A stretch of DNA of 64,000 bases from Lachnospiraceae bacterium. Lineage in GTDB: Bacteria; Bacillota; Clostridia; Lachnospirales; Lachnospiraceae. The position numbers and the translations under genes were made by a program. The stretch is taken from NCBI GenBank assembly GCA_017399685.1, contig JAFQBM010000049.1, positions 1 through 64,000 of the forward strand, in the 5' to 3' direction. Numbering within the stretch: position 1 is the stretch's first letter; each line of letters opens with the position of its first letter. The notes beneath the pieces are model-generated. The model was given only the letters and a program-made list of their open reading frames with translations. It did no database searches and was not told the DNA's origin. Below are positions 5,246 to 17,420 of the stretch, in pieces.

Positions 5246-5314
5246 AGATGCCTAATCGATACCTAATCATCGACATCTGCCATTTTCAATTTATTTCTAA
5301 TGTGGAGGATGTAC

Positions 5315-6172
5315 ATGGTTTATTTATCAAATTTTGAGTTTCCTGATGTAGAAAAAGAGTATGATTTTTTGCTGTCACTAAAAAGAACCTGCTACGATTC
5401 TTTTTATCCTTTCCAGACGGTATCAAAACATAATTTAGAATCTCTCACCTTCGAACCTGTGACTATCCTGTATGGTGGAAATGGTTCCGGAAAGACTACG
5501 GTTTTAAATATCATTGCAGAAAAACTTGGATTAGAGCGGGATGCACTATATAACCGTTCTAACTTTTTTCACGACTACACCCGTATGTGTGATTACGAAT
5601 TAGAACAAAAGATTCCATCCCACAGCAGAATCATAACCAGCGATGATGTATTTGATTTCATGTTAAATTTAAGAAGTATGAATCATGGAATCCATCAGAA
5701 ACGGGAAGAATTATTCAAGGAATATCTGGAAGCGAAATATTCTCATTTTCAGGTAAAATCTTTAGATGATTATGAACAACTTAAAAAAGTCAATGCAACC
5801 CGTAATCATTCCCAATCCAAATATATCCGTGATAATCTTATGGATAATATTCCGGAACATTCCAACGGAGAAAGTGCTTTTCTATACTTTTGCGATAAAA
5901 TAAAAGAAAATGCCTTATATCTGCTGGATGAACCGGAAAACAGCCTTTCTCCGGAAAAACAATTAGAACTGATTCAATTCTTAGAAGATTCTGCCCGTTT
6001 TTTTGGATGTCAGTTTATCATTGCTACCCATTCGCCTTTTATTCTTTCTATGAAGGGAGCAAAAATATACGATATGGACGAAGAACCGGTAACGGTAAAG
6101 CCTTGGACAAAGTTATCCAACGTCCGTACTTACTTTGACTTTTTTCAAAAACATATTAAAGAATTTGACTAG
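5315..6172 (+). CDS. AAA/ABC-type ATPase, OLD-like, unknown role
   Basis: A soluble P-loop ATPase of 285 residues. Walker A is YGGNGSGKTT (about residues 50-60), the Walker B region is YLLDEPENSLSPEKQLEL, and a switch motif ATHSPFIL follows. This is the AAA_15/AAA_21 arrangement found in OLD-like and RecF-like ATPases. The start at 5315 is preferred because GGAGG (5304-5308) is six bases upstream, while ATGs at 5300 and 5309 overlap the site. The gene stands alone between repeat copy A and the peptide operon that converges on it. Single-gene ATPases of this type are common in gut Firmicutes. Some related proteins act in phage defence, but nothing here shows that. Confidence 0.8.
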   Translation: MVYLSNFEFPDVEKEYDFLLSLKRTCYDSFYPFQTVSKHNLESLTFEPVTILYGGNGSGKTTVLNIIAEKLGLERDALYNRSNFFHDYTRMCDYELEQKIPSHSRIITSDDVFDFMLNLRSMNHGIHQKREELFKEYLEAKYSHFQVKSLDDYEQLKKVNATRNHSQSKYIRDNLMDNIPEHSNGESAFLYFCDKIKENALYLLDEPENSLSPEKQLELIQFLEDSARFFGCQFIIATHSPFILSMKGAKIYDMDEEPVTVKPWTKLSNVRTYFDFFQKHIKEFD

Positions 6173-6190
6173 GGATTTTTCCCTAGTCAT
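6168..6190. terminator. Bidirectional terminator between convergent genes
   Basis: GACTAGGGA pairs with TCCCTAGTC around a TTTT loop, at the end of the ATPase gene and downstream of the oppositely oriented peptide operon. Confidence 0.6.
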
Positions 6191-6230
6191 ATAATTTAGC
6201 TTTTCCCACTATAACTCATTTCCACCAGTT

Positions 6231-6332
6231 TTACATAATAATCAGCCAAATAAAACTAAATATGAAAGCAAGTATGAAAGACAAACTACAGTCAAGGTAT
6301 AATCTTTTATTTATTAGTTGTTCACCTTTCAC
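6231..6332 (-). CDS. Small membrane peptide ending the peptide-export operon (33 aa)
   Basis: A 33-codon ORF beginning with GTG, which overlaps the stop of the preceding permease as GTGA. Translational coupling is therefore likely. The N-terminus is polar and basic (MKGEQLINKR). After LYLD comes one strongly hydrophobic segment (CSLSFILAFIFSFIWLII) that reaches the last residues. This fits an N-in single-span peptide. Placed last in a bacteriocin-like operon, a small immunity protein is a plausible guess. No homologue is recognised, and the SD in front of the GTG is weak, so the ORF might be chance. Confidence 0.45.
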   Translation of the reverse strand: MKGEQLINKRLYLDCSLSFILAFIFSFIWLIIM

Positions 6333-7069
6333 ACACCCGGTTCAAACAAATATTTTACTGACACATAATAGAGGCATTGCAACAACAAATACTCAACTGC
6401 AAATGAAATAATAACATACAATGCAACTTCTGCTAAACTCGTACTTACGTTGTCAATTGTGATATTTTCCATTTGAATAAAAATACACATTTTATTAATT
6501 ATTTGCTGTATATTTTCACTGACTATATTTTTTGCTACTTCATTAAACATAGTCTCTATTAACGTAAACTTAACAAATGCGATTATTGCTCCTATAATGG
6601 CATTTTTACAAATTAGAATAAACATTAACACTACTGAAGCAATATGTGATAAGACTAACATGACAAGCAAAAGCCTAAACAAATCGTATTTATCATTTAT
6701 TGCATGAAAAATAAAAAGGTAAACTAATAAGCAAGCAACCACAATAATTGGAACAAATAATCCACAACTAATAGTCTTATCGATACTTATTCTAAAAGTA
6801 CTCATCCCTCGCATTATTTCATAATTCAACGTCTTATTTTTTATTTCTTGTCCAATATATACTGAAACAACAACTATTATCATAAGTAGTATATATACAA
6901 AACAGGTGCCTAACTCCACCCAAGCCTGCATCGCACGGACAGATTTATCCTCACACTCTGAAAAAAGAATGTCCATATAGCAAAGTAATAATAAAACTCC
7001 TGACAATAAAGGCAAATACTTAAAAATAGAAAAAGAATACCTGAAACGATATAATTCTTGTCTACTCAT
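6329..7069 (-). CDS. ABC-2 type permease (LanG/LanE-like)
   Basis: A 246-residue membrane protein with six predicted helices and the motif YIGQEIKNKTLNYEIMRGMS between helices 2 and 3. That motif is typical of ABC-2 permeases of lantibiotic-immunity and bacitracin-type transporters. The ATG follows the stop of the upstream permease immediately (TAG-ATG) with a GGGAG site. It is paired with the next gene and the LanF-like ATPase as an ATPase plus two permeases, the composition of LanFEG self-protection exporters. The two permeases are clearly paralogous (the NKTLNYEIMRG and YKTIYHEIMKG motifs correspond). Confidence 0.82.
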   Translation of the reverse strand: MSRQELYRFRYSFSIFKYLPLLSGVLLLLCYMDILFSECEDKSVRAMQAWVELGTCFVYILLMIIVVVSVYIGQEIKNKTLNYEIMRGMSTFRISIDKTISCGLFVPIIVVACLLVYLFIFHAINDKYDLFRLLLVMLVLSHIASVVLMFILICKNAIIGAIIAFVKFTLIETMFNEVAKNIVSENIQQIINKMCIFIQMENITIDNVSTSLAEVALYVIISFAVEYLLLQCLYYVSVKYLFEPGV

Positions 7070-7804
7070 CTAATAATCTCCCTTCCTTGTACTAAGCGAT
7101 AGAAGTAGCATGAGAACAAAGTATTCAATCACTGTTGAAAATATAATTCCAATATAACATGCCATCGGAATCTCAACACCAGTAGTTGTCAAATAAGACC
7201 ATTGTGACATAGTCAAAAATCCTTTTACCCAAACCAAAATATCATCTGGAAGTAATAAAGCAAGAAAACTAATAAGAACTTCAAAAAATTCAAATCTACA
7301 AAAAGCCAGACACCCTCCAGTTGCTCCATTTCTACACAACATTACATATAAAAGTGTGCATGAACAAATATGAAACAAATAAATATATATCAGAAGAAGT
7401 CTTGTAATAGAAAACTCACTTAAATAACTAGGGTTTATCATCAAAAAAATCAGCACCGAACTCCATAATATAAACGAATAAATAAATCCACAACTAATTG
7501 TTTTTGATAATGCAATTTTTGTTGACGAATATCCCTTCATAATCTCGTGATATATTGTCTTATACTTAAACTCATTTCCAACGTATACGGAAATGCCAAC
7601 TGCTCCAACAATACAAAAAAACATTCCCATCATTTTAAAAATAGATTGTGTTTCACTTCCATAAGACAAATCCGTCTCAAACATAGATGTATCTGAACTT
7701 ATAAGTAACATCACACCCACAGAGCCTACACCAATTAATACAAACATTAATATCGATTTAAAGAACCTATACAACTCCACTTTGCTTAATTTTGAAACGC
7801 TCAT
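7070..7804 (-). CDS. ABC-2 type permease (LanE/LanG-like)
   Basis: A permease of about 244 residues, paralogous to the gene that follows it. The true start is the ATG at 7804 (MSVSKLSKVELYRF), which overlaps the ATPase stop as ATGA. A longer reading frame would intrude 70 bases into the ATPase gene and has no SD. Six predicted helices surround the motif YVGNEFKYKTIYHEIMKGYS. It is expected to form a heterodimer with the second permease, driven by the ATPase encoded just upstream, and to expel or shield against the exported peptide. Confidence 0.82.
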   Translation of the reverse strand: MSVSKLSKVELYRFFKSILMFVLIGVGSVGVMLLISSDTSMFETDLSYGSETQSIFKMMGMFFCIVGAVGISVYVGNEFKYKTIYHEIMKGYSSTKIALSKTISCGFIYSFILWSSVLIFLMINPSYLSEFSITRLLLIYIYLFHICSCTLLYVMLCRNGATGGCLAFCRFEFFEVLISFLALLLPDDILVWVKGFLTMSQWSYLTTTGVEIPMACYIGIIFSTVIEYFVLMLLLSLSTRKGDY

Positions 7805-8490
7805 AAACCAACAATCTCCTTCATATAAAAGTCCTCTAAAGTTCCGTTTACTTCTTCTTTGGAAACACACTTTTGTATTCTTCCTTCCTTAACAAATACA
7901 AAGTCTGTAGAGAGTTGTTCTAGTTCTGATAAGATATGACTTGATAACAACAATGTAATGTTACTATCTTTGTTCAGAGAAAGTAACACTTTCCTAAGTT
8001 CAACGATTCCTTCAGGATCAACACCATTCATAGGCTCATCCAACACAAGGACTTGTGGTTCTGAAATTAAAGCACAAGCAATACCTAACCTCTGTCTCAT
8101 TCCCATCGAAAACTGTTTAACCTTTTTATTTCCTGCTGAATCCAAGCCCATCAAAGATATCAATTTCTTCAATTTATCAATATCATATTCTTCCTTGATA
8201 CTTCCAATGATTTTCATATTTTGAAGGGCTGTCATATTTTCATATAAATATGGACTTTCAATCATAAAACCCGTTTTATTTCTAAATTGTTCAATAGACT
8301 CCCCCGACTTTACTATTATCTCCCCATTCGTTGGTCTTACTAACCCTGCCAACATTTTAAATAAAGTAGTCTTTCCTGCACCATTTGGTCCAACAACTCC
8401 ATAAATATGCCCTTTTTTAATTTCTAAATTTGCATTCATTAACGCAGTATTTTTCTTGTATTTTTTTGTTAAATTATTTATGACTAACAC
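7801..8490 (-). CDS. ABC transporter ATPase (LanF/BcrA-like)
   Basis: A 229-residue nucleotide-binding protein with Walker A GPNGAGKTT, Q-loop region MIESPYLYENMTA, signature FSMGMRQRLG, Walker B VLVLDEPMNGVDP and a SSHILSELE switch. The MGMRQRLG signature and DEPMNGVDP box are characteristic of the BcrA/LanF/SpaF group, which energises bacteriocin immunity and antimicrobial-peptide exporters. The start overlaps the stop of the C39 transporter by a few bases and the stop overlaps the first permease, so the operon is fully coupled. A second, related ATPase lies at 12.8-13.5 kb. Confidence 0.88.
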   Translation of the reverse strand: MLVINNLTKKYKKNTALMNANLEIKKGHIYGVVGPNGAGKTTLFKMLAGLVRPTNGEIIVKSGESIEQFRNKTGFMIESPYLYENMTALQNMKIIGSIKEEYDIDKLKKLISLMGLDSAGNKKVKQFSMGMRQRLGIACALISEPQVLVLDEPMNGVDPEGIVELRKVLLSLNKDSNITLLLSSHILSELEQLSTDFVFVKEGRIQKCVSKEEVNGTLEDFYMKEIVGL

Positions 8491-10589
8491 AGTTTTCCCC
8501 CTTCAACATGATATACCTTATCAACATAATTTTTAAACTTTTCTCTATGTGAAATAATAATTACTGTTTTTTTAGAAAGATACTCATTAATTAAATTTAT
8601 AAACATTTCTTCACTATCTGAATCCATATTGCTAGAACTCTCGTCAAAAATGTACACTGGCGTGTCTCTCATCAATGCTCTCGCAAGTGCTATTTTTTGT
8701 CTTTGACCTCCCGAAAGATCCTTTCCACCAGCACTTAATATATGAGCTAATCCTTCTGTAAATGATTCAATTATTTCACGAACACCCGTCAACTCACACA
8801 CCTGCATCATTTTTTCATACTCTACATTCGTACAACCAAAAACAAGATTGTTATATAAAGAATCATGAAATAAATATACCTCTTGATTTACATAAGTTAT
8901 ATTATTTTTGATTGATTCACGATTAACTTCAGATATGCCATTATATTTTATTTCACCTGTTTGAACCTGATAATCAGCTGATATAAGATGAGCTAATGTT
9001 GACTTTCCACCTCCATTTGGTCCCGTAAGAAGAATTTTTTCACCTTCATTAATTTCAAAAGATAGATTCTCAATAATCTTCTTCCATGGTGTGTATCCGT
9101 ATGTTATGTTATCAGCCTGGATACTCGTTATAACATCTATGTTATTTTTAAAATCACCAACTGACTCATTTTCACATTCGCCAATATCTTCCATTCTCGA
9201 AAAAATGGTTTTAATTTCTGCTATTTCAGGTTGTAAATAAACCAATCTAGATAACGAAGACATAAAATATGTAAAAACCAAGTAAAATAGTATAAGATGA
9301 TCAATTTGTATTTTCCCATTAATGCACAATATTGTACCTAAACAAAGAACAATATAATTTCCCACCTCCGATAAAAACTCTATAATACTATTGTGACTCG
9401 AACCCATCACCATAAATTTTCTCAGTGATTCAGAATATTTTTTTAAGTCACAGAAAAAATTCTCTTTTTTCTTTTCTTCTAAAGCCAACCCTTTAATCAA
9501 TTCTATGCCACAAAGACTTTGTTCAATATCATCAACAATTTTTGCATTGTTATTCAACACATCTAAACTTCTCTTTTTAATCTTTCCATGAAACATACTA
9601 GTAACAATAAAAAGACTCACACCAACTATAAGTAAAACAAACAGTAGTGTTGGTGAAACTACAAATAGAACAATACCAAATCCCATTAAAAACACTATAT
9701 TTGAAATTCCTGATGTAAGAGTATGAATTATATAATTATTGAACTTTCTTATATCTGTAAATCTAGCAATTAACTCACCACTTTTTCTTCTTTTTATTGT
9801 ATCTAAAGGAGTAATAAGTAATTTATCATAGAAATTTCGCAACATATCCGCCTCTATTCTAGATGCTGCAAATGAAAATATAACATTCTGAATGAGTTCA
9901 ACCACTAATTTAGCACAAAAAATCAAACATAATATTATTATAAATTTTATGTCGTAAACATTTTTTAATATATCAACACTCTTTAATGAGTTTTCTTGGG
10001 ATTCAACAAGATAACCCATAGCAGTAGCGACAACTATACTGGCAACAATTCCTAAAAATGTAATCAATACAGAATTTACAAACAAAAAAATGATACCTTT
10101 TCTATTTTGATTAAGACATTTTTTGATTATTTTACCAGTATTACTACTATGCTTTTGCTTTATAAACAATTCATTTGGTTGCAATTCAATTATTACATTT
10201 TCATATACTGAAGCGAATTGTCTATGAGAAATTTTACAATATCCCTCAGCAGGGTCGATGTAATATATTAATTTAGATGTCACTTTATATACTACAATAA
10301 AATGAAAAAATACCTCAGATTTAACTAAAACAATACAAGGTAGGTGTACCTCTTTCTTTTGAATCGACTCCAATAAATTTTCAAAATTCCCTTTCAATGG
10401 CATAGCATTGAAATTTAAACTTTCTGCAACTTGTACAATATCATAAACAGATGTTCCATTGTTGCTAAAACACATAAGGTTACGAAACTTCGCTAACGGA
10501 AGTTTTAAACCATAATACCCTGCTATCATCGCCATACAAGCAGCGCCACAATCTTCCTCATCATGTTGTAAAACAGCTGAAATCTTCAT
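8484..10589 (-). CDS. Peptidase-containing ABC transporter (C39, bacteriocin processing/export)
   Basis: This 701-residue protein cuts double-glycine leaders and exports the mature peptide. An N-terminal C39 peptidase domain (1-140) has the catalytic triad Cys14 (HDEEDCGAAC), His96 (FFHFIVVY) and Asp112 (YYIDPAEG). It is followed by an exporter membrane domain of six helices (about 165-450) and an NBD with Walker A GPNGGGKST, signature KDLSGGQRQKIALARAL and Walker B VYIFDESSSNMD. Ser replaces the usual Thr in the D-loop area, and Walker B ends in DE as expected for an active ATPase. GAGG precedes the ATG. It lies immediately downstream of the 47-residue precursor gene, after a hairpin, which marks that peptide as its likely substrate. 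Confidence 0.93.
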   Translation of the reverse strand: MKISAVLQHDEEDCGAACMAMIAGYYGLKLPLAKFRNLMCFSNNGTSVYDIVQVAESLNFNAMPLKGNFENLLESIQKKEVHLPCIVLVKSEVFFHFIVVYKVTSKLIYYIDPAEGYCKISHRQFASVYENVIIELQPNELFIKQKHSSNTGKIIKKCLNQNRKGIIFLFVNSVLITFLGIVASIVVATAMGYLVESQENSLKSVDILKNVYDIKFIIILCLIFCAKLVVELIQNVIFSFAASRIEADMLRNFYDKLLITPLDTIKRRKSGELIARFTDIRKFNNYIIHTLTSGISNIVFLMGFGIVLFVVSPTLLFVLLIVGVSLFIVTSMFHGKIKKRSLDVLNNNAKIVDDIEQSLCGIELIKGLALEEKKKENFFCDLKKYSESLRKFMVMGSSHNSIIEFLSEVGNYIVLCLGTILCINGKIQIDHLILFYLVFTYFMSSLSRLVYLQPEIAEIKTIFSRMEDIGECENESVGDFKNNIDVITSIQADNITYGYTPWKKIIENLSFEINEGEKILLTGPNGGGKSTLAHLISADYQVQTGEIKYNGISEVNRESIKNNITYVNQEVYLFHDSLYNNLVFGCTNVEYEKMMQVCELTGVREIIESFTEGLAHILSAGGKDLSGGQRQKIALARALMRDTPVYIFDESSSNMDSDSEEMFINLINEYLSKKTVIIISHREKFKNYVDKVYHVEGGKLC

Positions 10590-10603
10590 TTTTCCTCACA
10601 AAG

Positions 10604-10650
10604 AAGTCACAATAGCATTCTCTTCAAATGAAAATACTATTGTGACTTTT
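10604..10650 (-). terminator. Intercistronic hairpin (attenuator) between precursor and transporter
   Basis: GTCACAATAGTATT pairs with AATGCTATTGTGAC in the 80-base gap between the precursor stop and the transporter start. Only a weak U-tract follows, so it is more likely a partial terminator or mRNA stabiliser that keeps precursor mRNA in excess. This is a frequent feature of bacteriocin operons. Confidence 0.55.
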
Positions 10651-10668
10651 ACCTCTCTTTATTTTTTA

Positions 10669-10812
10669 CTATCTTGTGCCTACGCCAGTTTCATCAGCAA
10701 TATGACACCAACCATGTAAAGGGTACGCATACCATGGAATATTCTTTCCACATGCAGGACACTTTACTCCTCCGATTGTTTCAATCTGCTCTTTTTCTGT
10801 CATCTTTGTCAT
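10669..10812 (-). CDS. Double-glycine leader peptide precursor, probable bacteriocin or signal peptide (47 aa)
   Basis: A 47-codon gene with an AAGGAG site eight bases before its ATG and a strong promoter upstream. Residues 1-15 form a leader ending TEKEQIETIGG, cut by C39 peptidases after Gly-Gly. Glu at -8 and Met at -12 fit the consensus, but the two Ile residues sit at -3 and -6, one position nearer the cut than usual. The predicted 32-residue core has Cys18, Cys21 (CPACG), Cys36 and nearby His33 and His37, plus Trp27, Trp35 and two Tyr. Three Cys exclude full disulfide pairing within one chain. A CxxC plus C/H arrangement could bind zinc or form a dimer. No modification enzyme is encoded nearby. 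It is first in the operon before the C39 transporter. I recognise no family. Confidence 0.75.
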   Translation of the reverse strand: MTKMTEKEQIETIGGVKCPACGKNIPWYAYPLHGWCHIADETGVGTR

Positions 10813-10907
10813 TTTTCTTTCTCCTTTCGCATTATTTATAGAAGCCTTCTACTTTTTAGTTAACATGCACGATCACTTTTATGTATTTATACATATTAAC
10901 CAAAATC

Positions 10908-10936
10908 AGTATACAACACTATTTTCATCATGTCAA
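10908..10936 (-). promoter_or_regulatory. Strong promoter of peptide operon
   Basis: On the minus strand, consensus TTGACA (10931-10936) and TATACT (10908-10913) are 17 bp apart, giving a start near 10901 and a leader of about 90 nt. The GACCRTT repeats seen before the LytTR operon are not present here. Confidence 0.75.
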
Positions 10937-11068
10937 CTATACATTTCATAATTTTACACAAACAAACATATTGTGCCAAAAAATCCCGTAAAAAATATTT
11001 TTTTCAACTACAAATGAAATATAGGGTTTGCCACAATGCGACAGCCCCATATAATTCAAGAAATCCGA

Positions 11069-11530
11069 CTAATTTTGTCCAAGATATAAATTAATCGTAT
11101 CTATTTCTTTTTTGGTAATCTTATAACCCACCACTGTCATAATGACATAAGTAGCTATAAACCCGGAAAGAGTTCCATAAAATGCCTGAGGATATCGGTT
11201 TAACTGCCAGATAAACACTACAATCGGAAACCACACAATACCTGTTAATATAAAATAAATAAGATTTTGCAGGATAAACCCTATCTCTACCTTTTCATAA
11301 ATAAACGTCATAAAAGAGAAAGCTGCTCCTATCACACCATAAAGCAGAATATTTACTTCTACTGCAATACTTTCCGAAGGAAACATTGCGATATATTCCG
11401 GTGAAAGTGGAGTAAAATCCTCCATCCCTGTCACCATCCGCACCACTACTTCTATTATTAGATTCATGAATGCCCCCCAGACAGCCGATATAAGGAAACT
11501 GCTAATACTACGTTTTAATACCTCTTTCAT
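11069..11530 (-). CDS. DUF3021 family membrane protein (LytTR-system partner)
   Basis: A 153-residue protein with four predicted transmembrane helices and almost no soluble domain. It matches DUF3021, a family nearly always encoded next to a LytTR DNA-binding protein. In streptococcal LytTR regulatory systems such as HdrRM and BrsRM, the membrane partner holds the regulator inactive, and release of the regulator induces bacteriocin or competence genes. Here it directly follows the LytTR gene with a 17-base gap, which supports the same pairing. The ATG at 11530 lies behind a GGGAG-like site. It is the last gene before the peptide operon. Confidence 0.82.
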   Translation of the reverse strand: MKEVLKRSISSFLISAVWGAFMNLIIEVVVRMVTGMEDFTPLSPEYIAMFPSESIAVEVNILLYGVIGAAFSFMTFIYEKVEIGFILQNLIYFILTGIVWFPIVVFIWQLNRYPQAFYGTLSGFIATYVIMTVVGYKITKKEIDTINLYLGQN

Positions 11531-11547
11531 TTTACATTTTCTCCCTT

Positions 11548-11994
11548 CTATATAATCCCTAACGCCTTCTTTAAACGACTCACATTTCTTCTGGAGGTAT
11601 ATGTTTCTTTGCCGTTGGACAGGATAATTTTAATGGTGCCTGTAAGGCTTAAATCCAGTTTTTTAATCTTTTTCAGATTTACAATCTCTGATTTAGAAAT
11701 ACGCATAAACCGTGTATCTTCTAATATCTCCTCTAATTCGTATAATTTACTTGGAATACTGTAGACTCCCTTTTCATCCTGTGCAAACACTTTCTGCCCC
11801 TGGGCATAAAAACATATCATCCCATTTAAGGTTAAGACACATTTTTCCCCTCGTTCATCCGTACCCATAAGAGAATCGTTCATCCACTGGTCTAGTTCCT
11901 TCACCAAATCAGATACTTCTTGATTCATTTCATTGTTACAAACATGTATTTCCATTGTCTTAAATGCTTTATCGATACATGCTTTTATCTTCAT
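11548..11994 (-). CDS. LytTR-domain transcriptional regulator
   Basis: A 148-residue cytoplasmic regulator consisting of an N-terminal segment of about 45 residues and a C-terminal LytTR DNA-binding domain (about 50-148). Visible hallmarks are LYELEEIL, FMRISKSEIVNL and the final YTSRRNVSRLKKAL. There is no receiver domain, so it is not a classical response regulator. Control is likely through the adjacent DUF3021 protein. A pair of nine-base repeats 21 bp apart lies just upstream of the operon promoter, the spacing expected for LytTR sites, which suggests autoregulation. It follows the ABC-2 permease gene in the same transcript. Confidence 0.88.
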   Translation of the reverse strand: MKIKACIDKAFKTMEIHVCNNEMNQEVSDLVKELDQWMNDSLMGTDERGEKCVLTLNGMICFYAQGQKVFAQDEKGVYSIPSKLYELEEILEDTRFMRISKSEIVNLKKIKKLDLSLTGTIKIILSNGKETYTSRRNVSRLKKALGII

Positions 11995-12015
11995 AGCTTT
12001 TCAATCCCCTTCTTG

Positions 12016-12801
12016 TTATTTAATATCTGCTTTTCTAAATGTCAGCCATGCAATCACTCCACAAATAGCGGTAAATAGAATACTTACTATAATACCCATA
12101 CACATGTCAGAAGTCTCTGCCTGAACACCCAGTTTACTGACACCATAATGATATGGCGTCAACTGATATATATTATCTAATATTTCTACTTTTGATGCAA
12201 GCGTAGAAATTAAGGCAGTCATCATGCCAAAGAAAAATCCGAAAGCAGTTACCACTACGGTCTTCTTCACTTTAATCGCAACAGGAATGCAGATACTCAG
12301 CTGTCCAATATAAACAACAGCAGATGCCACATAGGATAACATCAATTTCGCAATACTGTCCCCATCTTTAAACTGAAGCACATTTCCCATGTAAGCAGAA
12401 ATTACAGTTCCTTCTGCTCCTGTCATATCTGTTCCGGAAATGAGCAGTGCCAGAGAACCTATCGTATAAGGTAATATTAAAATAATCATCAAAACTGCAA
12501 ATACTGTGATAAAATTTATCACTATCTTTTTTCTTCCATAACCAATGGCTCCATGAATGGTTTTATTTTCAAAATCACTTCCTACCAAAATTCCAATTAC
12601 CAAAGAGCCAAATAACCAAAGAATCATGGCATCTCCAAGTCCCGTAATGCTTCCTGCCTGTTCCGCTGCAATGTCACCTTTTGCTACCATATTGGCTGTT
12701 ACATAGTAAAGAATGGCTGCAAAATAAGTAAGAATCACCGCTACCCTTATTCCTGTTGATTTTACTACCCGATACAATGTTGATTGAACTAATTGTTTCA
12801 T
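12016..12801 (-). CDS. ABC-2 type permease
   Basis: A 261-residue membrane protein with six predicted helices and the element VGSDFENKTIHGAIGYGRKK between helices 2 and 3, the ABC-2 hallmark also seen in the permeases at 6.3-7.8 kb. Its start overlaps the ATPase stop (ATGA), so the two are translationally coupled and form one transporter. With a LytTR/DUF3021 pair downstream, the likely role is export of, or protection from, an antimicrobial or signal peptide. The substrate is unknown. Confidence 0.83.
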   Translation of the reverse strand: MKQLVQSTLYRVVKSTGIRVAVILTYFAAILYYVTANMVAKGDIAAEQAGSITGLGDAMILWLFGSLVIGILVGSDFENKTIHGAIGYGRKKIVINFITVFAVLMIILILPYTIGSLALLISGTDMTGAEGTVISAYMGNVLQFKDGDSIAKLMLSYVASAVVYIGQLSICIPVAIKVKKTVVVTAFGFFFGMMTALISTLASKVEILDNIYQLTPYHYGVSKLGVQAETSDMCMGIIVSILFTAICGVIAWLTFRKADIK

Positions 12802-13505
12802 TCTGCTTCTCTCCCTTCGCCTTGAATGACTTCTAAGAAATATTCTTCTAAACTTTCCTTATGTTTTTCTTCTAATTCTTCCTGGGTAATTTCTTTCTTT
12901 ATGCTTCCTTTGTCCATGATAATGAAATCTGTTGCCGTCTGAAATAATTCCGGTAAATTATGACTAGATACCAGGAACGTGATTTTCTTTTCCTGATTCA
13001 GCTTCTTTATCAGATTTCGAATTTCCACCACACCTACAGGGTCCAGCCCATTTACCGGTTCGTCCAGCATCACAAAATCCGGTTTTCCTAAAAGTGCTAC
13101 TGCAATGCCTAGTCTTTGTCTCATTCCTAAAGAAAAGTCTTTTACTTTTTTCTTTCCAACATTGTCTAATCCCACAAGCCTTAAAAGCTCTTCTTCGGAA
13201 TTTTCGTTTTTTCCAGTTTGATAAAGCATGCGATAAAACTTTAGATTTTCTTTTGCACTCATATTACCATTCAATCCCGGTGCCTCGATTAAAGTTCCAA
13301 CCCTGCCTGCATTCACTTTTATACTTCCCTTTGTTGGAATACTTAAGCCTGCTATCATACGCATCATGGAGGTTTTTCCGGCTCCGTTCTTTCCCACCAA
13401 ACCATAAATCTTTCCTCTCTCTAATTGTAAATTAACCTGATTTACTGCCACTGTACCTTTGTATTTTTTCACTACATCTTTTAATGAAACTATGTATTTT
13501 CCCAT
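12798..13505 (-). CDS. ABC transporter ATPase (BcrA/LanF-like)
   Basis: A 235-residue ATPase with Walker A GKNGAGKTS, signature FSLGMRQRLG, Walker B FVMLDEPVNGLDP and the SSHNLPELF switch. It belongs to the same BcrA/LanF group as the ATPase at 7.8-8.5 kb but is not a recent duplicate. It is first in the operon ATPase-permease-LytTR-DUF3021. The start is at 13505 with AAGGAG upstream. Confidence 0.88.
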   Translation of the reverse strand: MGKYIVSLKDVVKKYKGTVAVNQVNLQLERGKIYGLVGKNGAGKTSMMRMIAGLSIPTKGSIKVNAGRVGTLIEAPGLNGNMSAKENLKFYRMLYQTGKNENSEEELLRLVGLDNVGKKKVKDFSLGMRQRLGIAVALLGKPDFVMLDEPVNGLDPVGVVEIRNLIKKLNQEKKITFLVSSHNLPELFQTATDFIIMDKGSIKKEITQEELEEKHKESLEEYFLEVIQGEGREAE

Positions 13506-13536
13506 GTTCTTTAACTCCTTTCCTTAACTTGTTCCT

Positions 13537-13565
13537 ACCATAACAATTTCATTGGAAAGTGTAAA
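13537..13565 (-). promoter_or_regulatory. Promoter of ABC-LytTR operon
   Basis: On the minus strand, TTTACA (13560-13565) and TATGGT (13537-13542) are 17 bp apart. The imperfect boxes fit a promoter that needs an activator. Confidence 0.55.
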
Positions 13566-13576
13566 CGGATTTTAGA

Positions 13577-13606
13577 TGAATGGTCGAAATGGGAATATAA
13601 ACGGTC
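13577..13606 (-). promoter_or_regulatory. Putative LytTR operator (direct repeats, 21-bp period)
   Basis: Read on the minus strand, GACCGTTTA, 12 bases, then GACCATTCA. Two nine-base direct repeats with a 12-base spacer (21-bp period, two helical turns) is the known geometry of LytTR-domain binding sites. The second repeat ends 11 bp before the -35 box. Confidence 0.55.
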
Positions 13607-13749
13607 ACTCTCCCCTTGCATACCCAAAACGCCCTATGTTATAATGGTTTATAACGATTCATGGTTGAAGTATAGAAAATAATTTATAAAAATAGCGATT
13701 CCCTTTCATCTGATTATGAAAAGGAAATCTCACAAAATGAGGGATGTTT

Positions 13750-14502
13750 ATGGAGAAAATATTACCAAATATATTAATCGTGGATGACGATATACAAACC
13801 ATCAAAATTATGAGTCTTTATCTGGAAGAGACTGCTAATGTTTTCAGTGTCTTAGGTGGCATCCAGGCATTGGATTTTTTAAAACAGCACTCTGTAGATA
13901 TGATATTACTGGATGTGGAAATGCCTGATATGAATGGATTCCAAACATTGGAACAAATTCGCAAAATCAAAGAATGCTCCCATATTCCTGTTATTCTTGT
14001 CACAGGGCATCGTGACAGATACGCCAGCCTAAATATAAGGATTTTAGGTATTGAAGGCTATTTATTAAAGCCTGTGAGTAAGGAAGTATTAAACTGCAGA
14101 ATTTCGGAAATATATCAAAAAAACACGGAAACCAGCCATCGTAAAACCATTTTGTTGATTGATGATGACATGGCTTATTTAAAACAGTTAAACAGCCTTT
14201 TAAAGGACTCTTATCATGTCATAATGATTAATTCCGGCAAACTTGCATTAAATTACCTTCTTAAACATACTCCGGATTTGATACTTTTGGATTATCAGAT
14301 GCCCGGGTATAATGGTTCGGATTTTATGAGAGAAATTCAAGAAAAATACCCTGATAAACAGATTCCCGTTATTTTAATGACAGGAACTTTAACCCAGGAA
14401 ATATTAAATGGATTTGATACCTATATTCCTGTTGCCTGTCTGCAAAAACCTGTCAACAAAGAAACTTTGTTTGAACATATTGAAAATGTGTTTAAACCTT
14501 AG
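13750..14502 (+). CDS. Two-receiver response regulator without output domain
   Basis: A 250-residue protein made of two CheY-like receiver domains in tandem and nothing else. The acceptor Asp residues lie in MILLDVEMPDMNG (about residue 55) and LILLDYQMPGYNG (about residue 181). Both domains keep the acidic pocket (VDDD, IDDD), the Thr in VTG/MTG and the KP motif. The ATG at 13750 has GAGGG seven bases upstream, better than the ATG at 13744. It is 17 bases upstream of a hybrid kinase, so it is probably part of the same phosphorelay. It may act as a phosphate relay or sink, or by protein-protein contact. Confidence 0.88.
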   Translation: MEKILPNILIVDDDIQTIKIMSLYLEETANVFSVLGGIQALDFLKQHSVDMILLDVEMPDMNGFQTLEQIRKIKECSHIPVILVTGHRDRYASLNIRILGIEGYLLKPVSKEVLNCRISEIYQKNTETSHRKTILLIDDDMAYLKQLNSLLKDSYHVIMINSGKLALNYLLKHTPDLILLDYQMPGYNGSDFMREIQEKYPDKQIPVILMTGTLTQEILNGFDTYIPVACLQKPVNKETLFEHIENVFKP

Positions 14503-14519
14503 AAGGGACGGAAGATAAT

Positions 14520-17420
14520 ATGAAATTCATTTTTCCCCAGATATTATTTGCCTGCTTTGTTCTGGCACTTTATTTTGCTATTGTAGTTTTTCGCAAAAGA
14601 GAATTTAAATATATGGAAAACCGGCTCTTTTTTGTCTTTTGCCTTTCCAGTGCTGTCTGGAGCCTTGGATTTTATGGGGTAATTGTTCAAACGGTTCCGG
14701 ATCGTGCCTATGCATGGCGTGCTTTAGGAATGATTGGTACCTTTGCCTATTTGATTTCCGTTCAGTTCTTGGTATGCTACCTTTCCGGAATGAAAAAGCG
14801 TTTCCATACTTTTTCAAAAGCGTTTTCATTTTTAGGTGTTATTATTTATTTCTTCACTATCCAGAAGGAAATGGTCACTCACGAATTAAGCGAATTTGGA
14901 ATGACCTACTCTTTTCATTCCGGAATTTGGAACACCCTATACATTACATACTGCGTTGTCCTTGCGATAAATCTGCTTATTATTGTGATTGATATGATAA
15001 GAAACTCACCAAATCGACGTATCAAGGAATTAGGTAAAAAATGCCTTTTGGCAGAAATTATCATTGTTTTTGGAATGATTTTTGACACCATTTTTCCTAT
15101 GATTAGCAACATGGTGATTCCAGGTAGTTCCATTGCTCAGTTTCTTGGACTTATCATCTTTTATCATGCCATTATTTTTATGAGCCATTCCCGTATCACC
15201 ATCGGTAATATGTCTGAGTTTATTTATTATTCACTTACAGTTCCTGTACTGGTTTACGATTCCAAACAGCAGCTCCAGCTATTAAACGACACAGCATATT
15301 CCTTTTTGGGTGTAGAAAAAGAGAATTTATCAAACACTGATATTAAACAATTATTTACACTGAAACAATCTGATATTTTTGATTTCAGTTCCAAATCCCG
15401 GGAAGTAGATGCTGTTTGCTGTCATAATCAGCTATACTGTAGTCTTTCTGTGAACAAAATTCATGATGCTTACGGTGATACCATTGGATATATTATTATT
15501 GTAACAGATCTTTCAGAGCGCATGAAAACCATGCAGGAACTGGAAGAAGCTATGAAAGATGCAGAATATGCGAACCATGCTAAAAGCGCCTTCCTTGCAA
15601 ATATGTCTCACGAAATCCGTACTCCAATGAATGCTATTATGGGATTTTCTGAGCTTGTATTAAAAATGGACATTAATAATGAGGTTCGGGAACATGTAGA
15701 AGATATCAAATGGTCTTCCCATAATCTGCTTGCCATCATTAATGATATTTTGGATATTTCTAAGATTGAATCCGGAAAAATGGAACTGGTGTTAGACCGT
15801 TATGCCACCGGTGACCTTTTAAATGATGTTGCCTTAATTATTTCCGCACAGGCTGAGAAAAAGGGCCTTGAGTTTCATATGCAGGTAGCAGAACAAATGC
15901 CAAAAGAACTCTACGGAGATAAAGTACGAATCCGTGGCATTTTAATTAACATTTTAAATAATGCAGTAAAATATACACAAAAAGGACTGGTTTCTTTCGA
16001 TGTTTCTATTTTAAATCAGACAGAAGATTTCGTTAGACTGGCATTTAAAATCAGTGATACCGGAATTGGTATCCGCCAGGAAAATTTAAAGAATCTGTTT
16101 CAAAATTTTGAACGCTTGGATCACAAAATCAATTATGGAATCGAAGGTTCCGGGTTGGGACTTGCCATTGCCAATGGCTATGTTACCTTAATGGATGGAA
16201 AAATCCAGGTAGAAAGTACCTACGGTGAAGGTTCTGTATTTACGGTAATCTTAGACCAGAATATTATTGATGCCACACCTTTGGAAAAGGATTTCTTCCA
16301 TAAAAAGAAGCCTCTTCATAGCAACAATACTTCCAATATGAAAATCCATGGTTTAGAAGTATTGGTGACAGATGATAATCTGGTAAATCTAAGAGTGGCA
16401 CATGGTATCTTAAGTTACTATGGTCTTTTGGCAGATACTGCTTCCAGCGGAATGGAAGCCATCGAACTTTGCCGTTCAAAAAATTATGACCTTATTTTTA
16501 TGGATCAAATGATGCCAGGATTAGATGGAACACAAACTATGAATCAGATCCGTGACTTGAATTCCCACTATAGCTTTGGTGGTAATTGTAAAATTATCGT
16601 ACTTACTGCAGATGCTATCAAGGGAACCAGAGAACTCTTAATTGATAAAGGATTTGACGAATATCTTGGAAAGCCAATTAATACAACAGAACTGGAACAA
16701 TTATTTTTACGTTTTATCTCTGAGGAAAGAATCACTTATGATACTCCGGATGAAAATTCTTCTGAAAACGGAAGAAATACAGAACATATAGGAAACGCAA
16801 AGAATGAGAAAGAAATATTGTTCTTAAAAGAAAAATTACCTGAAATCAAGGTAGAGAATGGTATTTTAAACTGCGGCGGAGAAATTCAGGATTATTTAAA
16901 CATACTAAAGATTACATATGAATATGGTGAAAAACATCTGGCTGAATTAGAGTATTCCTGGAAACAACAGGATTATGAAAACTATATCATTAAAATCCAT
17001 GCTTTAAAAAGTACATCATTAAGCATTGGTGCTACAGAAATTTCTGATTTTGCCCGTAAACAAGAGGAATCCGGCCGTTCTGGCGACTTTGCTTATATCG
17101 ACCAGAACATGACCACTTTCCAAAAAGACTATCGTGTTCTTTTAAATGATTTAGAAAAAGTCTTGAGTCATTATCAAATGCTGGAATCCATAACCAGAGC
17201 AGACGCTCTTCCAAAATTAGACGAAACCACCCTCCTTCCTATTCTAAATAATATGGAACATTGTATTGATGAATTCGATTTTGGAAAGGTTTTCGAAATT
17301 CTGGAAGAAATGAGGAAGTACTCTCTTCCTGAAAAATATAAATTTCTTTTTACACGGATAGAAGAACTGATGGAAACTATGTCTGTGGAAGAAATCAAGG
17401 AATTACTTCATGATACTTAA
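14520..17420 (+). CDS. Hybrid sensor histidine kinase with receiver and HPt domains
   Basis: A 966-residue membrane kinase with the domain order of a complete phosphorelay. Residues 1-235 hold seven predicted helices (7TM sensor type) and about 240-340 a PAS domain. HisKA follows with the H-box NMSHEIRTPMNA (His364). HATPase has the N-box ILNNAVKYT, G1 DTGIGI and G2 GSGLGLAIA. The receiver has Asp662 in FMDQMMPGLDG. The C-terminal HPt domain has His827 in KIHALKSTS. The N-terminal sensor is built like 7TM receptors of small molecules, but the ligand is unknown. The two-receiver protein encoded upstream is the obvious partner. No DNA-binding output is encoded nearby. Confidence 0.93.
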   Translation: MKFIFPQILFACFVLALYFAIVVFRKREFKYMENRLFFVFCLSSAVWSLGFYGVIVQTVPDRAYAWRALGMIGTFAYLISVQFLVCYLSGMKKRFHTFSKAFSFLGVIIYFFTIQKEMVTHELSEFGMTYSFHSGIWNTLYITYCVVLAINLLIIVIDMIRNSPNRRIKELGKKCLLAEIIIVFGMIFDTIFPMISNMVIPGSSIAQFLGLIIFYHAIIFMSHSRITIGNMSEFIYYSLTVPVLVYDSKQQLQLLNDTAYSFLGVEKENLSNTDIKQLFTLKQSDIFDFSSKSREVDAVCCHNQLYCSLSVNKIHDAYGDTIGYIIIVTDLSERMKTMQELEEAMKDAEYANHAKSAFLANMSHEIRTPMNAIMGFSELVLKMDINNEVREHVEDIKWSSHNLLAIINDILDISKIESGKMELVLDRYATGDLLNDVALIISAQAEKKGLEFHMQVAEQMPKELYGDKVRIRGILINILNNAVKYTQKGLVSFDVSILNQTEDFVRLAFKISDTGIGIRQENLKNLFQNFERLDHKINYGIEGSGLGLAIANGYVTLMDGKIQVESTYGEGSVFTVILDQNIIDATPLEKDFFHKKKPLHSNNTSNMKIHGLEVLVTDDNLVNLRVAHGILSYYGLLADTASSGMEAIELCRSKNYDLIFMDQMMPGLDGTQTMNQIRDLNSHYSFGGNCKIIVLTADAIKGTRELLIDKGFDEYLGKPINTTELEQLFLRFISEERITYDTPDENSSENGRNTEHIGNAKNEKEILFLKEKLPEIKVENGILNCGGEIQDYLNILKITYEYGEKHLAELEYSWKQQDYENYIIKIHALKSTSLSIGATEISDFARKQEESGRSGDFAYIDQNMTTFQKDYRVLLNDLEKVLSHYQMLESITRADALPKLDETTLLPILNNMEHCIDEFDFGKVFEILEEMRKYSLPEKYKFLFTRIEELMETMSVEEIKELLHDT

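Follow-up and report, generated by a model that had tools for sequence, protein, structure and literature searches.

Within the window, the 64,000-nucleotide stretch of DNA that was analysed, a compact group of genes on the minus strand encodes a small peptide with a Gly-Gly leader, an exporter with a C39 peptidase domain, an ATPase, and two permeases (Table 1). Along the exporter, ATPase, and permease genes, the starts overlap or touch the preceding stops, and the group can thus be read as one operon. The operon stretch is AT-rich, with 28–32% GC against 35–40% in its surroundings, which is compatible with horizontal acquisition.

Table 1. Features of the peptide operon and of the adjoining LytTR unit, in the order of transcription on the minus strand.
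Feature	Position	Strand	Remarks
LRS-type promoter ACCGTTTAT-12-ACCATTCAT-10-TTTACA-17-TATGGT	13537..13605	-	
ABC ATPase, permease, LytTR regulator, DUF3021 membrane protein	11069..13505	-	outside the peptide operon
Promoter	10908..10936	-	-35 TTGACA, 17-bp spacer, -10 TATACT
Ribosome binding site AAAGGAG	10821..10827	-	8 nt 5′ of the ATG
47-aa precursor peptide ORF	10669..10812	-	ORF list, shuffles, codon usage
Hairpin, 18 bp, in the gap between peptide and exporter genes	10604..10648	-	folding; genome-unique
PCAT/LanT-like exporter, 701 aa (C39 + TMD + NBD)	8484..10589	-	Pfam, alignment
LanF-like ABC ATPase, 229 aa, GTG start overlapping the exporter stop	7801..8490	-	TIGR03740 best, below cut-off
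ABC-2-like permease 1, ATGA overlap with the ATPase gene	7070..7804	-	six predicted TM
ABC-2-like permease 2, homologous to permease 1	6329..7069	-	six predicted TM
33-aa GTG ORF, 4-nt overlap with the permease 2 stop	6231..6332	-	single predicted TM; doubtful gene
Terminator-like bidirectional hairpin, 10-bp stem	6166..6189	.	common to the convergent gene 5300-6172

The consensus promoter claimed in a preliminary description of this DNA is present at 10936-10908, where TTGACA-17-TATACT scores 11/12 and lies about 90 nt upstream of the ribosome site; across the region, promoter-like sites show no excess (47 found vs 42.6 expected). The hairpin after the peptide ORF, also claimed there, is a strong one: its 18-bp stem folds at −27.4 kcal/mol (z = −7.4) and occurs once in the genome. 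It has no strong U-run, and an Rfam search returned sub-threshold matches alone. It is probably an mRNA end-stabiliser or a partial terminator. At the 3′ end of the operon, the 33-codon ORF has an uninformative coding score (−0.009 bits/codon); it could encode a tiny immunity peptide or be due to chance. The convergent gene at 5300-6172, on the plus strand, encodes a 290-aa AAA ATPase with partial similarity to defence ATPases of the PtuA, AriA, and AbiL types.

Upstream of the peptide promoter lies a separate unit, 11069-13605, that is a putative LytTR Regulatory System operon. The spacing in its promoter, repeat-12-repeat-10-(−35), is exactly that of the published layout (PMC6193735), with 1 match in the sequence vs 0 in 100 shuffles. 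In Streptococcus mutans, bacteriocin and competence genes are controlled by LytTR systems. No LytTR direct repeats were found upstream of the peptide promoter, so any LytTR link to the peptide operon would depend on read-through or be indirect. The DNA between the two units showed no terminator-like site.

The precursor ORF translates to the leader MTKMTEKEQIETIGG (10768-10812) followed by the 32-residue core VKCPACGKNIPWYAYPLHGWCHIADETGVGTR (10672-10767). It has the 47 codons and the Gly-Gly, at residues 14–15, that had been attributed to it, and a strong Shine–Dalgarno sequence precedes it. To estimate how often such an ORF would arise by chance, the 479-bp intergenic region was dinucleotide-shuffled 5000 times. 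Of the shuffled sequences, 6.4% contained an ORF of 30 codons or more that had an ATG and a Shine–Dalgarno sequence, 0.7% contained one of this length with a Shine–Dalgarno sequence and with Gly-Gly falling in the leader zone, and 0.3% one that had three Cys besides. The codon usage of the precursor in frame scores 0.24 bits/codon vs 0.25 for the exporter gene; in the two remaining forward frames the score drops to −0.63 and −0.75, and no wrong-frame sample reaches the in-frame score. The ORF is taken as a gene. No further Gly-Gly ORF is listed in the intergenic region.

The final 12 residues of the leader, MTEKEQIETIGG, are identical at 7 of 12 positions to the leader of pediocin PA-1, LTEKEMANIIGG, as read from plasmid pSMB74. 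When the ten variable residues were permuted, at least 5 matches were obtained in 0.6% of cases (a fraction of about 0.006), a figure that is indicative only, since pediocin was chosen post hoc. Of the positions that contact a C39 domain, −12 is a fitting Met, but Gln occupies −7 and Thr −4, where hydrophobic residues are usual. The leaders of PCAT1, ComA, and LahT depend on hydrophobic residues at −7/−4, and an Ala at −7 reduced binding to PCAT1. In LahT150, a C39 protease from the Lachnospiraceae, a V-4T leader change was fully processed and a charge at −7 was harmful. The Ile residues of the present leader, at −6 and −3, are one place later than the usual hydrophobic positions. Cleavage after Val16, which these residues would suit, is unlikely because of the narrow cleft in PCAT1. 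The leader is imperfect yet recognisable, and export by the C39 exporter appears likely from the sequence. Of the marks of a double-glycine peptide, a Gly-Gly (or GA/GS) leader on a small ORF and an adjacent intact C39 exporter are found at this locus, and the third, hydrophobic residues at −12, −7, and −4, is matched in part.

The exporter carries Peptidase_C39 (4e-32), ABC_membrane, and ABC_tran domains. Its Q8, C14, H96, and D112 align with those of all eleven relatives examined, so the Cys-His-Asp triad is intact, as had been stated; the ABC signature, the Walker B Glu, and the H-loop His align likewise. Among solved structures, PCAT1 is the nearest to it in sequence (1.3e-86). The leader-binding residues A55 and I59 of PCAT1 correspond, in our own mapping, to V48 and V52, both hydrophobic, and the hydrophobic leader groove thus seems to be kept. 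In this the exporter resembles that of the PCAT1/CtA system of Clostridium thermocellum, from which the present system differs in a leader lacking a hydrophobic −7 and in a core of 32 residues with CxxC/HxxC. At a threshold of 1e-100, the window’s own copy is the only one in the family genomes. Among the matches listed, relatives in the phylum draw are 27–31% identical, and those on plasmids reach at most about 29% identity. No relative was found in IMG/VR and no DNA match in plasmids. By these comparisons, the exporter is a divergent branch.

The peptide operon also includes the LanFEG-like set announced in the preliminary description, made up of the ATPase and the two permeases that follow. 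The best family of the ATPase is TIGR03740 (lantibiotic protection), at 8e-67 and 225.1 bits vs a cut-off of 309.75; it falls short of a LanF assignment and is called LanF-like here. With another ATPase of this kind, encoded upstream at 12798-13505, it shares 43% identity. The permeases share 29–31% identity, and six TM segments are predicted in each; neither scores above cut-off for any Pfam or NCBIfam family, and permease 1 has no relatives in 397 family genomes beyond its operon partner, permease 2. As in lantibiotic LanFEG, an ATPase is joined by two permeases that have six TM segments each and are homologous to each other, and the set closes a Gly-Gly peptide operon at its 3′ end. It differs in the sub-threshold score of the ATPase, in permeases that match no LanE/LanG family, and in an operon without LanM/LanC. 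LanFEG-type immunity is chiefly known from lantibiotics, so the presence of the set is no proof of the peptide being the toxin. By analogy, self-protection would be the natural reading of its role.

The core has the 32 residues, three Cys, two Trp, and two Tyr reported for it. It is near neutral rather than strongly cationic (three Lys/Arg, two Asp/Glu). No Ser is present, and there are just two Thr, Thr42 and Thr46, both C-terminal to the last Cys, an arrangement that makes lanthionine chemistry unlikely. Neither the YGNGV(x)C sequence of class IIa bacteriocins nor any family match was found in the core. The Cys and His residues are arranged as C18-x2-C21-x11-H33-x2-C36, two x2-spaced pairs with the spacing of a zinc knuckle. 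A CxxC..[CH]xx[CH] pattern arises in 0.9% of shuffled cores; the pattern was chosen post hoc, and the figure is therefore indicative. The odd number of Cys had been taken to suggest a dimer, a free thiol, or metal binding. Neither a dimer nor a free thiol is required, and C18/C21/H33/C36 is a candidate four-ligand metal set that would give a simpler answer. The pair C36-H37 had been put forward as metal ligands; H33-x2-C36 is the better candidate partner of C18-x2-C21, as it mirrors that pair and completes a symmetric four-ligand set.

Zinc families yielded no profile above cut-off for the peptide; the best in Pfam, Zn_ribbon_3, reached 13.8 bits vs 27. The best match overall is NF001604, the zinc ribbon of archaeal RNA polymerase subunit P, which spans the Gly-Gly (19.4 bits, E 0.00056, cut-off 103). 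AlphaFold without an alignment gave a pLDDT of 59.8 for the peptide, and both AlphaFold models are of low confidence. The genome-wide matches to CPACGKNIPWY are metal motifs of prepilin peptidases. In the N-terminal domain of these A24 peptidases (PF06750), CPxCGKNIPWY is near-identical to core residues 18–28, but A24 is a membrane enzyme with CxxC..CxxC and the likeness ends after 11 residues. The paired CxxC motif of the A24 N-terminal domain is a metal-site pattern. With a similarity that short, descent is a less likely origin than convergence on a metal knuckle.

The peptide is in other respects an orphan. No curated family exceeds its cut-off for it, in agreement with its earlier description as an unrecognised precursor, and the matches overall are weak or frame-broken. 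No convincing homologue was found in 397 family genomes and 391 class genomes, in plasmids, phages, and IMG/VR, or in 84,980 species genomes, the last scanned with exact eight-residue patterns that reach close relatives only. Weak matches in the 397 family genomes were read in frame and rejected, and two listed matches from the 84,980-genome scan are prepilin peptidases and not homologues of the peptide. The short flanks of other C39 loci, searched with a strict motif, held no Gly-Gly/CxxC peptides. By these searches, the core is an orphan.

The main genes scanned, from about 2 to 23 kb of the window, included no lanthipeptide or radical-SAM enzyme, and the cluster contains no LanB/C or LanM, by which a lanthipeptide locus would be recognised. 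The preliminary description, which had listed LanB, LanC, LanM, and radical-SAM enzymes as absent, is right for the neighbours scanned; for LanM it does not extend to the genome, since two LANC_like/LanM proteins are encoded on another contig. That LanM cluster (6186-14827 of the contig piece 14001-33900) has its own candidate precursors and C39 exporter.

We propose that the locus is probably a self-contained secreted-peptide operon made up of the peptide, a PCAT exporter, and ABC proteins for self-protection, and that its product is most likely a class II-like bacteriocin without modifications. The operon type is known and genuine; its peptide is an orphan. The precursor would be transcribed from its own promoter, and the hairpin after the gene would probably raise the peptide mRNA above the downstream mRNA. 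Judging from its family, the C39 domain of the exporter would bind the leader and cut after Gly15, with the ABC part exporting the 32-residue peptide. The LanF-like ATPase and the two permeases would then clear the peptide from the membrane of the producer. What stabilises the mature peptide may be a single disulfide or a metal at C18/C21/H33/C36. For a core released after Gly15, the calculated monoisotopic mass is 3541.685 when reduced, 3539.669 with a single disulfide, and 3603.598 with Zn(II), and an all-disulfide dimer would have 7077.322; release after Val16 would give 3442.616 in the reduced form. In support of this proposal are the coding signal, the chance tests, the conserved catalytic residues, the kinship with PCAT1, the leader match to pediocin, the tolerated V-4T change in LahT150, the overlapping starts, and the lack of a modification gene among the neighbours scanned. 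Gln −7 and Thr −4 in the leader weaken it, as does the lack of a homologue that would reveal a conserved leader, core, or exporter pairing. A killing activity of the peptide is plausible.

The pediocin PA-1 operon (pSMB74, NC_004832.1) is similar in its short Gly-Gly leader, its single C39 exporter, and its unmodified Cys-bearing peptide. Here, however, the YGNGV motif, a PedB-type immunity gene, and a disulfide isomerase are all absent; an ABC three-gene set is present instead, the core is unrelated, and the exporter is about 27% identical.

The same genes could also be read with the peptide as a secreted signal (a pheromone) or another non-killing Gly-Gly peptide, the downstream ABC proteins sensing or detoxifying something else. 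Gly-Gly peptides and PCATs serve signalling too, as described in PMC7018657; the LytTR/DUF3021 system lies directly upstream, recalling the control known in S. mutans, and the near-neutral charge of the core would be in keeping. Against this, the operon has no receptor kinase or Rgg-like receptor, the peptide promoter has no LytTR direct repeats, and a dedicated LanF-like three-gene ABC set is more typical of self-protection, so that we regard a signalling role as unlikely. It is more improbable still that the ORF encodes a small zinc-ribbon protein of the cytosol, 47 aa long and with a coincidental Gly-Gly, and that the exporter’s substrate lies elsewhere. The span of NF001604 across the Gly-Gly, the prepilin peptidase motifs, and the imperfect leader fit would agree with such a protein, but every zinc-family score is far under its cut-off, the leader is like that of pediocin, the gene is the first in an exporter operon, and no second Gly-Gly ORF is listed that might supply the exporter with a substrate from the intergenic region.

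Modification in trans by the LanM enzymes of the other contig, which would make the peptide a lanthipeptide or another RiPP, deserves very little credence. The two LanM proteins and a core with three Cys, Thr42, and Thr46 would allow it, but the precursors and exporter of the LanM cluster are its own, and the core offers no Ser and no Thr ahead of a Cys. For the bacteriocin reading, one could go a step further and propose a secreted bacteriocin with a metal knuckle of 30 residues, CX2C-X11-HX2C, as its active fold, its activity or stability dependent on a metal, zinc or another, acquired within the cell or outside it. We hold this as a doubtful proposal, and metal binding by the core as a minority hypothesis drawn from the spacing of its residues. 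To our knowledge, no metal-knuckle Gly-Gly bacteriocin has been described, and none appeared in the titles and abstracts of the open-licence literature searched.

Gly-Gly operons without modification enzymes are easily missed, as the precursor is short and no curated family exceeds its cut-off. The 47-mer would be an orphan bacteriocin, and its divergent leader probes the strictness of C39 leader recognition. If the core binds metal, it would be a peptide weapon tied to metal availability.

Elsewhere in the genome, the LanM cluster is of the lantibiotic two-component type, with LanMs of 996 and 938 aa (counted from their GTG codons), a pair of candidate precursors, and a 710-aa C39 exporter. 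A separate cluster (7284-14420 of the contig piece 12000-30000) encodes two Gly/Ala-rich Gly-Gly peptides, class IIb-like by eye, together with ABC genes, a C39 exporter, and a 550-aa HlyD-like protein.
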